From positions 1 to 10,913 of the forward strand of contig SLIE01000469.1 of NCBI GenBank assembly GCA_007135795.1: DNA of 10,913 bases, written 5' to 3'. The position numbers and the translations under genes are program-made. The DNA is from Desulfobacterales bacterium. Its GTDB lineage: Bacteria; Desulfobacterota; Desulfobacteria; Desulfobacterales; Desulfosalsimonadaceae. Every line of letters begins with the position of its first letter. Within the stretch, counting starts at the first letter, position 1. Below, piece by piece: positions 6,222-9,395 of this stretch. Below the pieces are notes generated by a model that made no database searches, was not told the origin of the DNA, and worked only from the letters and a program-made list of their open reading frames with translations.

Positions 6222-6273
6222 ATTACCGATTGCGTGCTTGGGTAAAATCTTTCTCTAAAGGCGGTTTTTGCAT

Positions 6274-6405
6274 ATGTATATTGAATTACAGTATGTTATA
6301 GCACTTGTGGCGGGTATTCTGATACTTGCTGTACCCAAGTTTTTGCGATATATTGTGGCCATTTATTTGATTGCCTATGCTGTAATGGGTCTTATGCGGT
6401 GGTAG
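6274..6405 (+). CDS. DUF3096-like 43-residue membrane micro-protein
   Basis: An ATG at 6274 opens a 43-codon frame ending TAG at 6403-6405. The product starts MYIELQYVIALVAGILILAV, then PKFLRYIVAIYLIAYAVMG, and ends LMRW. This is two short hydrophobic helices joined by a PKFLRY turn, the pattern of the DUF3096 family of small bacterial membrane proteins (N-terminal IELQ, a central GILILxxP, then a YIVAIYLI helix). The function of that family is unknown. AAAGGCGG (6257-6264) lies 9 bases upstream as a plausible ribosome binding site. It sits 52 bases after the enoyl-CoA hydratase on the same strand and could be read through from it. The MITE-like element begins 3 bases after its stop. The family assignment is from memory of the pattern. 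Confidence 0.75.
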   Translation: MYIELQYVIALVAGILILAVPKFLRYIVAIYLIAYAVMGLMRW

Positions 6406-6407
6406 GG

Positions 6408-6548
6408 TACAAGCTATCCCAAAAAAAGATCACGCCCGCAGGCAAGGGGTGAGGCGATGAAAAAGGGGCGCATATACGTATAGGTGAGCATTTTGAAGAG
6501 TCTCACAACGCCGCCAGAGGGTGTTAGATTATTTTGAGATAGCTTGTA
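6408..6548. mobile_element. MITE-like element with 17-bp terminal inverted repeats
   Basis: TACAAGCTATCCCAAAA (6408-6424) is matched inverted by the segment at 6532-6548 (TACAAGCTATCTCAAAA on the minus strand), 16 of 17 bases identical. The enclosed 141 bases include both TA ends, as expected for elements of the IS630/Tc1-mariner group that duplicate a TA on insertion. The interior has no transposase frame but holds a perfect palindrome TATACGTATA (6473-6482) and a GTGAG/CTCAC hairpin (6484-6506). A non-mobile intergenic repeat with the same symmetry is the alternative. Confidence 0.5.
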
Positions 6549-6644
6549 ATAACCCGAATCCAGTACTTATATGTTTCATCTACAGTATTATTGCTTTTCC
6601 GTAAGTTCGGTATGAGTTACGCTATGCGATGAAAAAAATCTCCG

Positions 6645-6676
6645 CCCCGGATGTAAAACGGGGAGAATAATTTTTC
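6645..6676 (+). terminator. Weak candidate terminator upstream of the aroF promoter
   Basis: CCCCG (6645-6649) pairs with CGGGG (6659-6663) around a 9-nt loop, followed by AGAATAATTTTTC. The stem is short, but the place fits: it would insulate the aroF leader from transcripts arriving from the left. Confidence 0.3.
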
Positions 6677-6705
6677 TTGACGAAATGTGTAATTGTTTCT
6701 AAAGA
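6677..6705 (+). promoter_or_regulatory. Candidate promoter for the aroF leader
   Basis: TTGACG (6677-6682) and TAAAGA (6700-6705) are 17 bases apart; the -35 is good and the -10 weak. Transcription would start near 6712, about 76 nt before the leader-peptide ATG at 6788. It is the only reasonable pair seen between the MITE-like element and the leader. Confidence 0.35.
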
Positions 6706-6787
6706 ATAACTTAACAATCATCTTGATGCGATTTCGCTGATTGTCTGATTTCTCAAACTCTTGTTTTGAAGGTGGGTGTAGTTTCAA

Positions 6788-6892
6788 ATGACAGGCGTAA
6801 TTTGTGGAATTAAATTTGATTTTACAGTGGCATGGTACTGGTGGCGAATCACTGACACCTGTATTTGCGTCCCAGGGCCGATACCATTGTAA
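6788..6892 (+). CDS. Leader peptide with Trp-Tyr-Trp-Trp (attenuation of aroF-aroB)
   Basis: A 34-codon frame starts at ATG 6788 and stops at TAA 6890-6892. Codons 16-19 (6833-6844) read TGG TAC TGG TGG, giving AWYWWR, and codons 10-12 read TTT GAT TTT (FDF). Three Trp codons in four, with Tyr and nearby Phe, is very unlikely by chance. It is the hallmark of leader peptides that sense charged tRNA by ribosome stalling. A strong intrinsic terminator starts 22 bases after its stop, and the first downstream gene makes DAHP, the committed precursor of Trp, Tyr and Phe. AAGGTGG (6769-6775) is a somewhat distant ribosome binding site (12 nt). An in-frame GTG at 6827 is a shorter alternative start. 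The peptide itself probably has no function after synthesis. Confidence 0.65.
   Translation: MTGVICGIKFDFTVAWYWWRITDTCICVPGPIPL
6832..6887 (+). promoter_or_regulatory. Possible 1:2 leader RNA stem over the Trp codons
   Basis: ATGGTA (6832-6837), which covers the first Trp codon, can pair with TACCAT (6882-6887). The following CTGG (6838-6841) can pair with CCAG (6872-6875). A possible antiterminator pairing is GTCCC (6869-6873) with GGGGC (6924-6928), which would open the top of the terminator stem. These are short pairings found by eye, so the exact RNA switch is uncertain. Confidence 0.35.
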
Positions 6893-6913
6893 TTCGAAGT
6901 ATATATCTGGCAG

Positions 6914-6955
6914 AAAAAGCCGCGGGGCCGAAAGGACTCCGCGGCTTTTTTTTTG
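6914..6955 (+). terminator. Strong intrinsic terminator/attenuator before aroF
   Basis: AAAAAGCCGCGG (6914-6925) pairs perfectly with CCGCGGCTTTTT (6939-6950). The GC core is 7-8 bp, the loop contains GGCCGAAAGG, and an uninterrupted T-run (6946-6954) follows. It lies between a promoter-bearing leader and aroF with no full gene upstream, so it should act as an attenuator and not as a simple end-of-operon signal. Confidence 0.85.
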
Positions 6956-7013
6956 CTTGATCCATTGGGTATTGTAACCGGGTTCTAAATCTATAGATAG
7001 CAGGAGGGGTAAC

Positions 7014-8030
7014 ATGTTGATCGTCATGAACCGTGATGCCACGGAAGAGCAGGTAAACGATGTCATTCGAATGATTACGACCTGCGGATATACCGCACAT
7101 CCTATTCCCGGGGGTGAGCGGGTTTCGATCGGTGTTCTGTATAACAAGGGAGCTGTTGATGATGCCCTCTTCCGGTCTATGCCCGGTGTCAAGGAAACCA
7201 TACCGGTTACCAAGCCTTACAAACTTGTCAGCAGGGAGTTTCATCCGGTCGATACCATTGTTCGTGTCGGGGATGTCTCGATCGGGGGGGATGCGCTGGT
7301 CATCATCGGCGGTCCGTGTGCCGTTGAGAGCGAAGCGCAGGTTATGGCCATAGCCGGGCATGTGAAAGCGGCCGGGGGCGATATCCTCCGCGGCGGTGCG
7401 TTCAAGCCTCGTACATCCCCTTACTCGTTTCACGGCCTTGGCGAGGAAGGTCTGAAAATACTGGCAAAAGCAAAAGCAACATTCGGGCTTCCGATTGTAA
7501 CCGAGGTAATGGATCTCAGCTGTTTTGACATGGTAGAAGCCTACGCTGATATTATACAAATCGGCACCCGGAACATGCAGAACTTCAGCCTGCTTCGACG
7601 CGCCGGGGAATCGAAAAAACCGATACTTTTGAAACGCGGCATGTCCGCCACAGTTGATGAATGGTTAATGGCCGCCGAATATGTCATGACTGAAGGCAAC
7701 ACGAACGTGATTCTTTGCGAGCGCGGGGTCCGTACTTTTGTAAGGCACAGCAGAAACACCCTTGACCTTTCAGCCGTACCCGTTGTTAAACGGTTGAGTC
7801 ATCTCCCCATAATTGTCGACCCGAGTCATGCCACCGGGTACCGGGACCAGGTAATGCCGTTGGCAAGGGCATCTGCGGCAGTGAGTGCACACGGCTTGAT
7901 GATCGAGGTACACCACGCACCTGAAACGGCAAAATGCGATGGTGGGCAGTCGCTGTTACCCGATCAGTTTGCAGTTCTTTGCAAACAGGTCAGGGCGATA
8001 TTTGAAGTGTCCGAAGGAAGAGAACTGTAA
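7014..8030 (+). CDS. aroF: 3-deoxy-7-phosphoheptulonate (DAHP) synthase, type I-beta
   Basis: This is the first enzyme of the shikimate pathway, condensing phosphoenolpyruvate and erythrose 4-phosphate to DAHP in the cytoplasm. The 338 residues match the length of the Thermotoga-type enzyme. An N-terminal ferredoxin-like (ACT-like) regulatory domain (about 1-70) precedes the TIM barrel (about 80-338). Metal ligands are visible as C102 (GGPCAVES), H272 (DPSHATG), E298 (MIEVHH) and D309 (KCDGGQSL). Substrate-contact motifs GGAFKPRTSPYSF (127-139), IGTRNMQNF (183-191) and LLKRGM (205-210) are intact. The N-terminal domain in this class usually gives feedback inhibition by Tyr or Phe, which would add allosteric control to the leader attenuation. 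Ribosome binding is strong: AGGAGGGG begins at 7002, spaced well from ATG 7014. aroB follows after 27 bases, so the two form an operon. Confidence 0.95.
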   Translation: MLIVMNRDATEEQVNDVIRMITTCGYTAHPIPGGERVSIGVLYNKGAVDDALFRSMPGVKETIPVTKPYKLVSREFHPVDTIVRVGDVSIGGDALVIIGGPCAVESEAQVMAIAGHVKAAGGDILRGGAFKPRTSPYSFHGLGEEGLKILAKAKATFGLPIVTEVMDLSCFDMVEAYADIIQIGTRNMQNFSLLRRAGESKKPILLKRGMSATVDEWLMAAEYVMTEGNTNVILCERGVRTFVRHSRNTLDLSAVPVVKRLSHLPIIVDPSHATGYRDQVMPLARASAAVSAHGLMIEVHHAPETAKCDGGQSLLPDQFAVLCKQVRAIFEVSEGREL

Positions 8031-8057: not shown

Positions 8058-9098
8058 TTGAAAATACATGAAATTTCCGGGCAAACCGGTTCGTCGAGGA
8101 TATTGGTCGGCAGGGTCATGGATACCATCACCCAATACCTGCCCAATGGGTCCCCCCTGATCATTCTAACCGATGATAATGTCAGGCATTATTATGAAGA
8201 CCGGTTCCCACCAGCCCAAACGATTATAACAATGGGCACGGGAGAAGGGCACAAGACCCTCGATACGGTGCAAATGATCTATGAGCGCCTTGTATCGATC
8301 GAGGCGGATCGCTCCATATTTCTTTTGGGGATCGGGGGGGGAATTGTCTGTGATATAACCGGTTTTGTAGCCTCCACGTATATGCGGGGGGTGCGTTTCG
8401 GTTATATGCCGACGACCTTGCTTGCCCAGGTGGATGCCGGGGTGGGGGGGAAAACCGGGTTCAATTTCATGGGCTACAAGAATATGATCGGGACGTTCAA
8501 CCAACCTGAACTGGTTGTTTGTGATCCTGAGTTCTTTCCCACGCTTTCCCCGGTCGATCTTTCATGCGGTTTTGCGGAAATCATAAAACATGCTGCCATT
8601 GCAGATCATTCATACTTCGAGATACTTGAAAATTTCGATATTAAAAAACAGATGGACGACCCAGGGGTTGTTGAGGATATCGTGCACAGGTCCGTGATGA
8701 TAAAAGCCGACATTGTGAACCGGGATGAAAGGGAACGGGGAGAGCGGCGAAAACTCAATTTCGGTCATACCCTGGGGCATGCGCTTGAAAAGACGATCGG
8801 TATGCCGCATGGCGAAGCGGTTGGCATCGGAATGATGGCGGCGGCAAATCTCTCCCTTGAAAAAAATCTCCTGCAGCCCGGAGATGTGCTGCGTTTGAAA
8901 AATTTATTAGAATCTTTTCATCTTCCCACTGCTGTAGATCTGGATGTTTCCAAGGTTATGGATGCCCTTGCCCGTGACAAAAAAAAGGAAGGAAAGATGA
9001 TTCACTTCGTGCTGCTCAATGGCATCGGAAAAGCCGTGATTGAAAGTATTTATCTCGATGTTTTGGAAAAGGTGCTCTTTAAGAAACAGTCGGCCTGA
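8058..9098 (+). CDS. aroB: 3-dehydroquinate synthase
   Basis: This NAD- and Zn-dependent enzyme converts DAHP, the product of the gene upstream, to 3-dehydroquinate (second shikimate step). At 346 residues it has normal length. Family motifs are GIGGGIVCDITGFVASTYMRG (91-111, nucleotide binding), PTTLLAQVDAGVGGKTGFN (118-136), and the zinc ligands E174 (GFAEIIKHA), H237 (LNFGHTLGHALE) and H251 (MPHGEAVGIGM). The start is a TTG: AGGAGA (8047-8052) lies 5 bases before TTG 8058, and the next in-frame ATG would cut about 20 residues including the first strand, so TTG is preferred. The gene is probably co-transcribed with aroF. No terminator was seen after the stop; the convergent minus-strand gene ends 15 bases further on. 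Confidence 0.95.
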   Translation: MKIHEISGQTGSSRILVGRVMDTITQYLPNGSPLIILTDDNVRHYYEDRFPPAQTIITMGTGEGHKTLDTVQMIYERLVSIEADRSIFLLGIGGGIVCDITGFVASTYMRGVRFGYMPTTLLAQVDAGVGGKTGFNFMGYKNMIGTFNQPELVVCDPEFFPTLSPVDLSCGFAEIIKHAAIADHSYFEILENFDIKKQMDDPGVVEDIVHRSVMIKADIVNRDERERGERRKLNFGHTLGHALEKTIGMPHGEAVGIGMMAAANLSLEKNLLQPGDVLRLKNLLESFHLPTAVDLDVSKVMDALARDKKKEGKMIHFVLLNGIGKAVIESIYLDVLEKVLFKKQSA

Positions 9099-9113: not shown

Positions 9114-9395
9114 TCATTCAATTAAATATCGGGGGTTTTGGATGCGCTCGCTTTTACACCTGGGGCATTTGCCCGGTCTTTCAGGGCGGCTTCGATCCTT
9201 GAACTGGTAATCACATATCAGGCATGAAGAAGGAATAATGATCAATTTTTTCCCCTGCGCCAATACCGACTTTTTAATATGCGGTATATGTGTATAGACC
9301 TCTTTTTCACTTATGCTCAAAAGTTGGGAAATCTCTCTTGCGTCATGATCGCCGCTTTCAAGGAGTTCAATGATCTGTTTCCGGATGGTGGACAT
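9114..9395 (-). CDS. Small transcriptional regulator: HTH plus zinc ribbon
   Basis: The protein is 93 residues long. Residues 1-45 form a compact winged-helix/ArsR-like helix-turn-helix (TIRKQIIELLES, then DAREISQLLSISEKEVYTHIPHI). Residues 57-82 form a zinc ribbon with four cysteines, C58-x2-C61 and C77-x2-C80 (SCLICDYQF, then GKCPRCKSERI). This architecture matches predicted regulators with an HTH fused to a Zn ribbon (COG3357-like), common in archaea and deltaproteobacteria. Targets are unknown. It would act in the cytoplasm on DNA. ATG 9395 is supported by GAGG just upstream. It lies 91 bases downstream of the patatin gene in the same direction and may share its transcript, and it converges on aroB with a 15-base gap. 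Confidence 0.8.
   Translation of the reverse strand: MSTIRKQIIELLESGDHDAREISQLLSISEKEVYTHIPHIKKSVLAQGKKLIIIPSSCLICDYQFKDRSRPERPGKCPRCKSERIQNPRYLIE

Follow-up and report, generated by a model that had tools for sequence, protein, structure and literature searches.

The gene pair aroF-aroB in a Desulfobacterales bacterium is preceded by a short reading frame with the codons TGG TAC TGG TGG in a row and by a terminator hairpin. This raises the question of whether the first step of aromatic amino acid synthesis is controlled there by attenuation and, if so, which amino acids the leader would sense. The stretch of DNA analysed, here called the window, is 10,913 nucleotides long and comes from a draft genome that is 82% complete; the nearest named relatives of its aroF are in Desulfobacterales and Desulfobacteraceae MAGs at 84-86% identity.

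Anatomy of the leader region and its conservation in the family

The features on which the argument draws are all on the plus strand:
6677-6705, plus: promoter-like (sigma-70-like) site, recognised by its sequence pattern, TTGACG (6677-6682), 17 nt and TAAAGA (6700-6705)
6788-6889, plus, with a TAA stop at 6890-6892: leader peptide frame of 34 codons, with corresponding frames in relatives
6833-6844, plus: proposed regulatory codons TGG TAC TGG TGG, in which Trp is the conserved residue
6833-6845, plus: strand 1 of the 1:2 hairpin, from RNAalifold and pair counts, overlapping the Trp codons
6869-6887, plus: strand 2, the 3' part of which pairs with strand 1 and the 5' part, GUCCCAGGGC (6869-6878), with strand 3
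6919-6928, plus: strand 3, GCCGCGGGGC, common to the antiterminator and the 5' arm of the terminator
6914-6954, plus: intrinsic terminator (3:4) with nine T, 97.6% of cells paired and 13 changed on both sides
7002-7007, plus: aroF ribosome binding site AGGAGG
7014-8030, plus: aroF, a type I-beta DAHP synthase with an N-terminal ferredoxin-like domain (PF00793 and PF18152)
8058-9098, plus: aroB, 3-dehydroquinate synthase (TIGR01357), 27 nt 3' of aroF, with TTG as its listed start codon

The leader frame translates to MTGVICGIKFDFTVAWYWWRITDTCICVPGPIPL and contains TTT GAT TTT at 6815-6823 ahead of the Trp run. Both groups of codons had been named in the original prediction and are present, the GC-rich terminator and the aroF ribosome binding site that it had placed after them were located, and the domain and family matches agree with its reading of the downstream genes as aroF and aroB. 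The ribosome binding site of the leader itself, AAGGTGG, lies 12 nt 5' of the ATG and is weak. The distance from the leader stop codon is 21 nt to the A-U foot of the terminator and 26 nt to its G-C stem, and the hairpin at 6913-6951 has an energy of -27.9 kcal/mol; a simple terminator pattern scan did not include the 6914-6954 terminator among its matches, probably because the bulge in its inner stem gives a loop longer than the pattern allows.

Given the promoter-like site, a leader RNA would be expected to run from ~6712 to ~6950. Of the 21 family leaders, 19 (all but L085 and L086) carry the pattern of TTGAC, 16-18 nt and a TA-box 5' of their Trp codons, compared with 1.3 of 21 on average and 4 at most in shuffles; the hexamers had been picked by eye from the sequences before counting. 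Further 5' of the promoter the plus strand encodes a 43-residue DUF3096 protein (6274-6405; PF11295, E = 1e-14), and by eye a resembling frame also stands 5' of the leader in L013. Convergent with aroB is a PF0610-like zinc ribbon protein on the minus strand (9114-9395), and a seemingly similar reading was seen by eye after aroB in L111.

The genes upstream of the leader share its direction. Three Trp in four codons occur at two places over all six frames of the window (the leader and 9386), and when 6222-7013 was shuffled 300 times with dinucleotides preserved, such a cluster appeared in some frame in 8 of the shuffles. Taken by itself in a single genome, the cluster is thus no more than moderately improbable.

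An aroF match at E <= 1e-80 was found in 33 of the 36 genomes of the window's family and the leader element in 24 of them (covariance model, at least 73 bits, the next match scoring 46 bits). The model was built from 21 of those 24, the other three being new matches, and in one of these, G010, the leader leads into an aroF truncated at the contig end. Weak minus-strand matches overlap the strong ones and probably reflect the model's palindromic terminator. Among the 12 family genomes without a strong leader match, no full aroF of this type was found at threshold in G006 and G022 (no match) or in G008 and G013 (fused paralogue only), G032 holds a partial aroF gene, and no leader was found in five others (G016, G018, G024, G025 and G026). 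A terminator retained without the leader frame, the finding that the original prediction had held would count against it, does occur in the remaining two, G028 (locus L109) and G033 (locus L099), a minority beside the 24 of 36 with the element. In both loci the terminator follows a promoter-like site, and decay of an attenuator is possible there.

The peptide cores in the family include WYWW, FWW, WWW, WRWW and WCWW, with Trp retained and the slot between the Trp residues varying; the slot that holds Tyr in the window is also occupied by R, C or W in family relatives. In the six leaders from the window's genus it reads Y, F, Y, W, W and Y, all aromatic. The leader of a cultured relative, Desulfospira joergensenii (L022), has a weaker form that reads FYCW. 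In L086, L127 and L315 a similar element of ~100-150 bp, perhaps a dispersed repeat and seemingly an insertion, was seen by eye between the terminator and the DAHP synthase gene.

Predicted competing RNA structures

Unguided folding of 21 aligned leaders by RNAalifold yielded a 1:2 hairpin, whose 5' arm holds the Trp codons, and the 3:4 terminator; both of these covary. In the 1:2 hairpin 87.7% of cells are paired, five pairs show double changes and 18 cells are changed on both sides; neither its number of double-changed cells nor its covariation score was reached in any of 500 shuffles, and pairing fell to 22-57% when the partner was moved one, two or three columns along. The alternative 2:3 pairing, of strand 2 with the terminator 5' arm, typically comprises 5 + 3 pairs (GCCCY.CGG with CCG.GGGGC) and excludes both 1:2 and 3:4 (strand 2 in common). 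It did not covary among the 21 family leaders, where 76.7% of cells were paired and 396 of 500 shuffles scored at least as high. Such a result may be expected where strand 4 constrains strand 3, and where strand 2 is held both by strand 1 and by the reading frame. In the order-wide comparison 22 of 27 families had a 2:3 duplex stronger than the one formed after shuffling of strand 2 (p = 0.0015), and the 1:2 duplex exceeded its shuffles in 18 of 27 only (sign p = 0.12, Wilcoxon 0.013). Both pairings had been drawn by eye in the original prediction; the first gained covariation, while the second is conserved and beats shuffles but does not covary.

The last Trp codon lies 69-81 nt from the terminator foot in the 21 family leaders. 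No leader family of Rfam matched at the gathering score, nor at a relaxed threshold, where the six sub-threshold matches all lay over the terminator hairpin.

Recurrence across the order and the codon content of the leaders

A survey of the order found aroF at E <= 1e-130 in 104 of 242 genomes, at 105 loci, 102 of which have 150 nt or more of upstream sequence (L101, L133 and L197 were dropped). The rule applied was two Trp in five residues followed by a terminator of -12 kcal/mol or lower starting no more than 60 nt from the stop. Such a frame and terminator stood upstream of aroF at 66 of the 102 loci, compared with three when the reverse strand was read, none in any of three rounds of shuffling (0, 0 and 0 of 102) and 1 of 60 aroF loci of mostly other phyla. 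With controls so close to zero, the recurrence before aroF is not a matter of chance. Seven of the 36 loci that miss the rule were near misses, leader-like but below a cut-off and scored as misses (L143, L154, L180, L195, L206, L208 and L223). When the rule was applied to other residues the counts out of 102 were Arg 46, Leu 42, Gly 41, Phe 34, Ile 24, Asn 23, Tyr 16, Gln 15, Cys 14, Met 11 and His 8; they are high because frequent residues pass easily and the same frames are scored again, and Trp tops them all though it is usually the rarest. Among the 87 loci with at least 400 nt downstream, aroB came next after aroF in 38, at 25 of the 53 loci that have a Trp leader and at 13 of the 34 that lack one. 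In eight it is trpE that follows; these eight belong to a single family and each has a Trp leader. The leader thus appears tied to aroF rather than to aroB.

Leaders of the same kind stand before other genes of the pathway. The window's genome also has a Trp leader 5' of trpE (L128, ...QPNWWWQTF...), in which the leader MNQSYAYPKNMYQPNWWWQTFTRVCRQTA and terminators precede trpE-trpG on the reverse strand (~1084-1290, counted on the reverse complement), with a cinA-like gene in divergent orientation. The aroF leader model matches sites upstream of trpE at 38-44 bits, for example G020:C261:37480-37602, and further weak matches near trpE lie at G023:C6:1187527-1187647 and G014:C42:12163-12273. 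To judge from their sequences, the aroF and trpE leaders may share ancestry. At 17 family loci a second DAHP synthase was listed, its open frame spanning 567-694 codons, and a Pfam check of two of these showed fusion to prephenate dehydratase and ACT. All 16 of the loci examined (L112-L127) carry a Phe-rich leader of the form ~RRFFFxFRSVHPxV, with no Trp cluster, and a terminator; several seem by eye to have two terminators in tandem. The suggestion that aroF-aroB would couple the amino acids to one control point was therefore overstated, since the second enzyme has a leader of its own. In the incomplete assembly of the window no second TIGR01361 match was found at E <= 1e-70.

The trpE leaders serve as a control for the Phe and Tyr codons. 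The comparison set comprised genomes with an aroF Trp leader and a trpE among the matches listed, minus those with trpE directly after aroF, with the addition of G000 and of three genomes in which the rule found no Trp leader before aroF, giving 41 loci; a Trp leader was found by the same rule in 35 of these 41 upstream regions, among the trpE matches listed. Counted over the final eight residues of the core, Trp has a share of 38.6% both in aroF leaders (204/528) and, among the matches listed, in trpE leaders (108/280 in 35 leaders), whereas Phe and Tyr make up 10% and 7.6% in the former and 2.5% and 2.1% in the latter. Phe or Tyr is present in 51 of 66 aroF cores and, among the matches listed, in 11 of 35 trpE cores (p = 1e-5). 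Pairing by genome and by family, done to lessen the effect of kinship, gave more Phe/Tyr in aroF in 25 genomes, equal numbers in 5 and fewer in 4 (n = 34, p = 1e-4), and for families 12, 3 and 2 (p = 0.013). The pairing included the trpE leaders of G259 and G153, which fall below the terminator cut-off, and excluded that of G130, which does likewise; read as a tie (one F/Y each), G130 would give 25, 6 and 4 of 35 genomes and 12, 4 and 2 of 18 families, leaving the sign tests unchanged. The enrichment is also local, Phe and Tyr forming 28.7% of the non-Trp residues at -7 to -1, 7.3% at -20 to -9 and 5.5% at +1 to +10.

At eight loci of one family (L187, L203, L204, L209, L215, L217, L219 and L222) a single Trp leader precedes aroF and then trpE. 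Their cores hold 0.375 Phe/Tyr each, compared with 1.55 in the other 58; Phe or Tyr occurs in three of the eight, each time at the far end of the core, and at least one is present in 48 of the 58 cores without a directly adjoining trpE (49 of 59 before L187 was added to the eight). Where aroF has joined the trp operon the leader is thus, as read from these sequences, nearly Trp-only.

It is possible, though we consider it rather doubtful, that aroF is preceded by a pure Trp attenuator in which the Tyr and Phe codons are incidental. Only Trp is widely retained, position -2 in the 66 aroF cores being W in 39, R in 7, Y in 6 and C in 6; three or four Trp codons would be enough for stalling; and with a Phe-specific leader on the sister gene Phe sensing would be unnecessary here. 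The replacement of the window's Tyr by R, C or W in its family fits the same explanation, and so does the independence of Phe/Tyr content from the number of TIGR01361 genes (1.67 vs 1.47, p = 0.61, in incomplete genomes), a result that led to rejection of the idea that Phe/Tyr content rises where there is a single DAHP synthase. Against it stand the absence of the enrichment from trpE leaders, its restriction to the seven positions that lead up to the last Trp and the aromatic character of the variable slot throughout the window's genus. The first reading of the Tyr codon had itself been that it was incidental, the slot being often Trp, Arg or Cys, and the comparison with trpE leaders reversed it. 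With high confidence, Trp is the main input. The mixed Trp/Tyr/Phe sensing of the original prediction holds as an order-wide tendency, suggested by the comparison with trpE, and not as a fixed W/Y/F formula, 15 of the 66 aroF cores having neither Phe nor Tyr.

Proposed mechanism and its place among known systems

The sequence evidence makes it very probable that aroF-aroB is controlled by a classical Trp-type ribosome-mediated transcription attenuator, as originally proposed, since relatives conserve the leader frame with its Trp codons, the terminator and the competing pairings (24/36 in the family; 66/102 for the rule in the order). Transcription would start near 6712 and a ribosome would translate the leader. 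With charged tRNA-Trp plentiful the ribosome would reach the stop codon and either cover strand 2 or allow 1:2 to form, and in both cases the terminator at 6914-6954 would end the transcript. Stalling on the Trp codons (6833-6844) would instead hide strand 1, strand 2 (6869-6878) would pair with strand 3 (6919-6928), and with 2:3 formed the terminator would be blocked and aroF-aroB transcribed. The Phe and Tyr codons lie just 5' of or within the Trp run and, with moderate confidence, the switch would open on shortage of these amino acids also; the spacing suggests that a ribosome stalled at their positions would still cover strand 1. For the order as a whole we see roughly even prospects that the aroF leader is a multivalent attenuator integrating the three aromatic amino acids, with Trp dominant, alongside a Trp-only leader on trpE and a Phe-only leader on aroF-pheA.

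Other explanations of the conserved leader fare less well than this attenuator. Action of the leader RNA or peptide also in trans has a precedent in peTrpL of Sinorhizobium, as described in an excerpt of PMC7298713. It is very unlikely here, the peptide outside the Trp run being poorly conserved across the order. TnaC-type arrest peptides stall in response to free Trp, and the tail CALRPVP after the Trp run, Pro-rich and conserved in the window's family, could be taken for a sequence of that kind. This is highly improbable: the tail varies outside the family across the order, it is explained by the nucleotides of strand 2, with CAPW and CALR alternating over the same pairing, and it would make little sense for a biosynthetic gene to be induced by Trp. 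A chance frame beside a plain terminator that ends the upstream operon would suit the common direction of the upstream genes and the 8 of 300 shuffles with a Trp cluster, but is extremely improbable in view of the recurrence at 66 of 102 loci with controls near zero and of the covariation within the very hairpin that holds the Trp codons.

The attenuator proposed here shares with classical trpL tandem Trp codons and the logic of 1:2, 2:3 and 3:4 pairings; it differs from the trpL of trpE operons in governing the shared entry step and in having Phe and Tyr beside its Trp codons. Multivalent attenuators are known from the ilvGMEDA and thrABC operons of enterobacteria, which carry branched-chain or Thr/Ile codons; these likewise hold the codons of several end products in one leader, with other amino acids and other hosts. 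The aroF-pheA leader (L112-L127) is found in the same genomes, on the same first enzyme and with the same class of mechanism, but is Phe-rich without a Trp cluster and precedes an enzyme fused to prephenate dehydratase. In Escherichia coli aroF encodes a DAHP synthase of a different type.

The following comparisons draw on excerpts of the cited papers. For E. coli aroF-tyrA an attenuator has been proposed with Tyr tRNA as the signal (PMC2659441, PMC8632094), alike in its position before a DAHP synthase operon and unlike in that signal. The closest precedent is Corynebacterium glutamicum, in which aroF is preceded by a Phe-Tyr-Phe leader (aroR) that is reported to respond to Phe and not to Tyr (PMC11802643, PMC4046766). 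It combines, as here, an aromatic-codon leader peptide with attenuation before a DAHP synthase operon; it differs in its Phe-Tyr-Phe codons, with no Trp reported in those excerpts, and in belonging to an actinobacterium. The uORFC-13-1 motif of Acholeplasma aroF, a proposed Phe leader (PMC8632094), likewise has an upstream frame and a terminator before aroF, but with Phe codons, another structure and in another phylum. Trp attenuators precede trp operons and trpS in a survey of actinobacteria (PMC1262725), and the DAHP synthase of the Simkania trp operon is thought to be dedicated to Trp (PMC3937554). The excerpts of open-access literature that were searched yielded no report of an aroF Trp leader in Desulfobacterales. 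Such control had been called much less documented, which is apt for Desulfobacterales, but for Corynebacterium leader control of aroF has been reported, and for Acholeplasma and E. coli it has been proposed. As far as could be seen, the mechanism is classical and what is new is its position and codon mix.

If the multivalent reading is true, there would be a division of labour in the codons of the leaders, the mix in each mirroring the end products that its gene serves. The three leaders of one pathway, at the entry step, the Trp branch and the Phe branch, would then form a natural experiment on the tuning of attenuators, and multivalent attenuation at a branch point would become testable by exchange of codons. 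A mostly uncultured group of bacteria would thereby gain an amino acid regulon that can be read.
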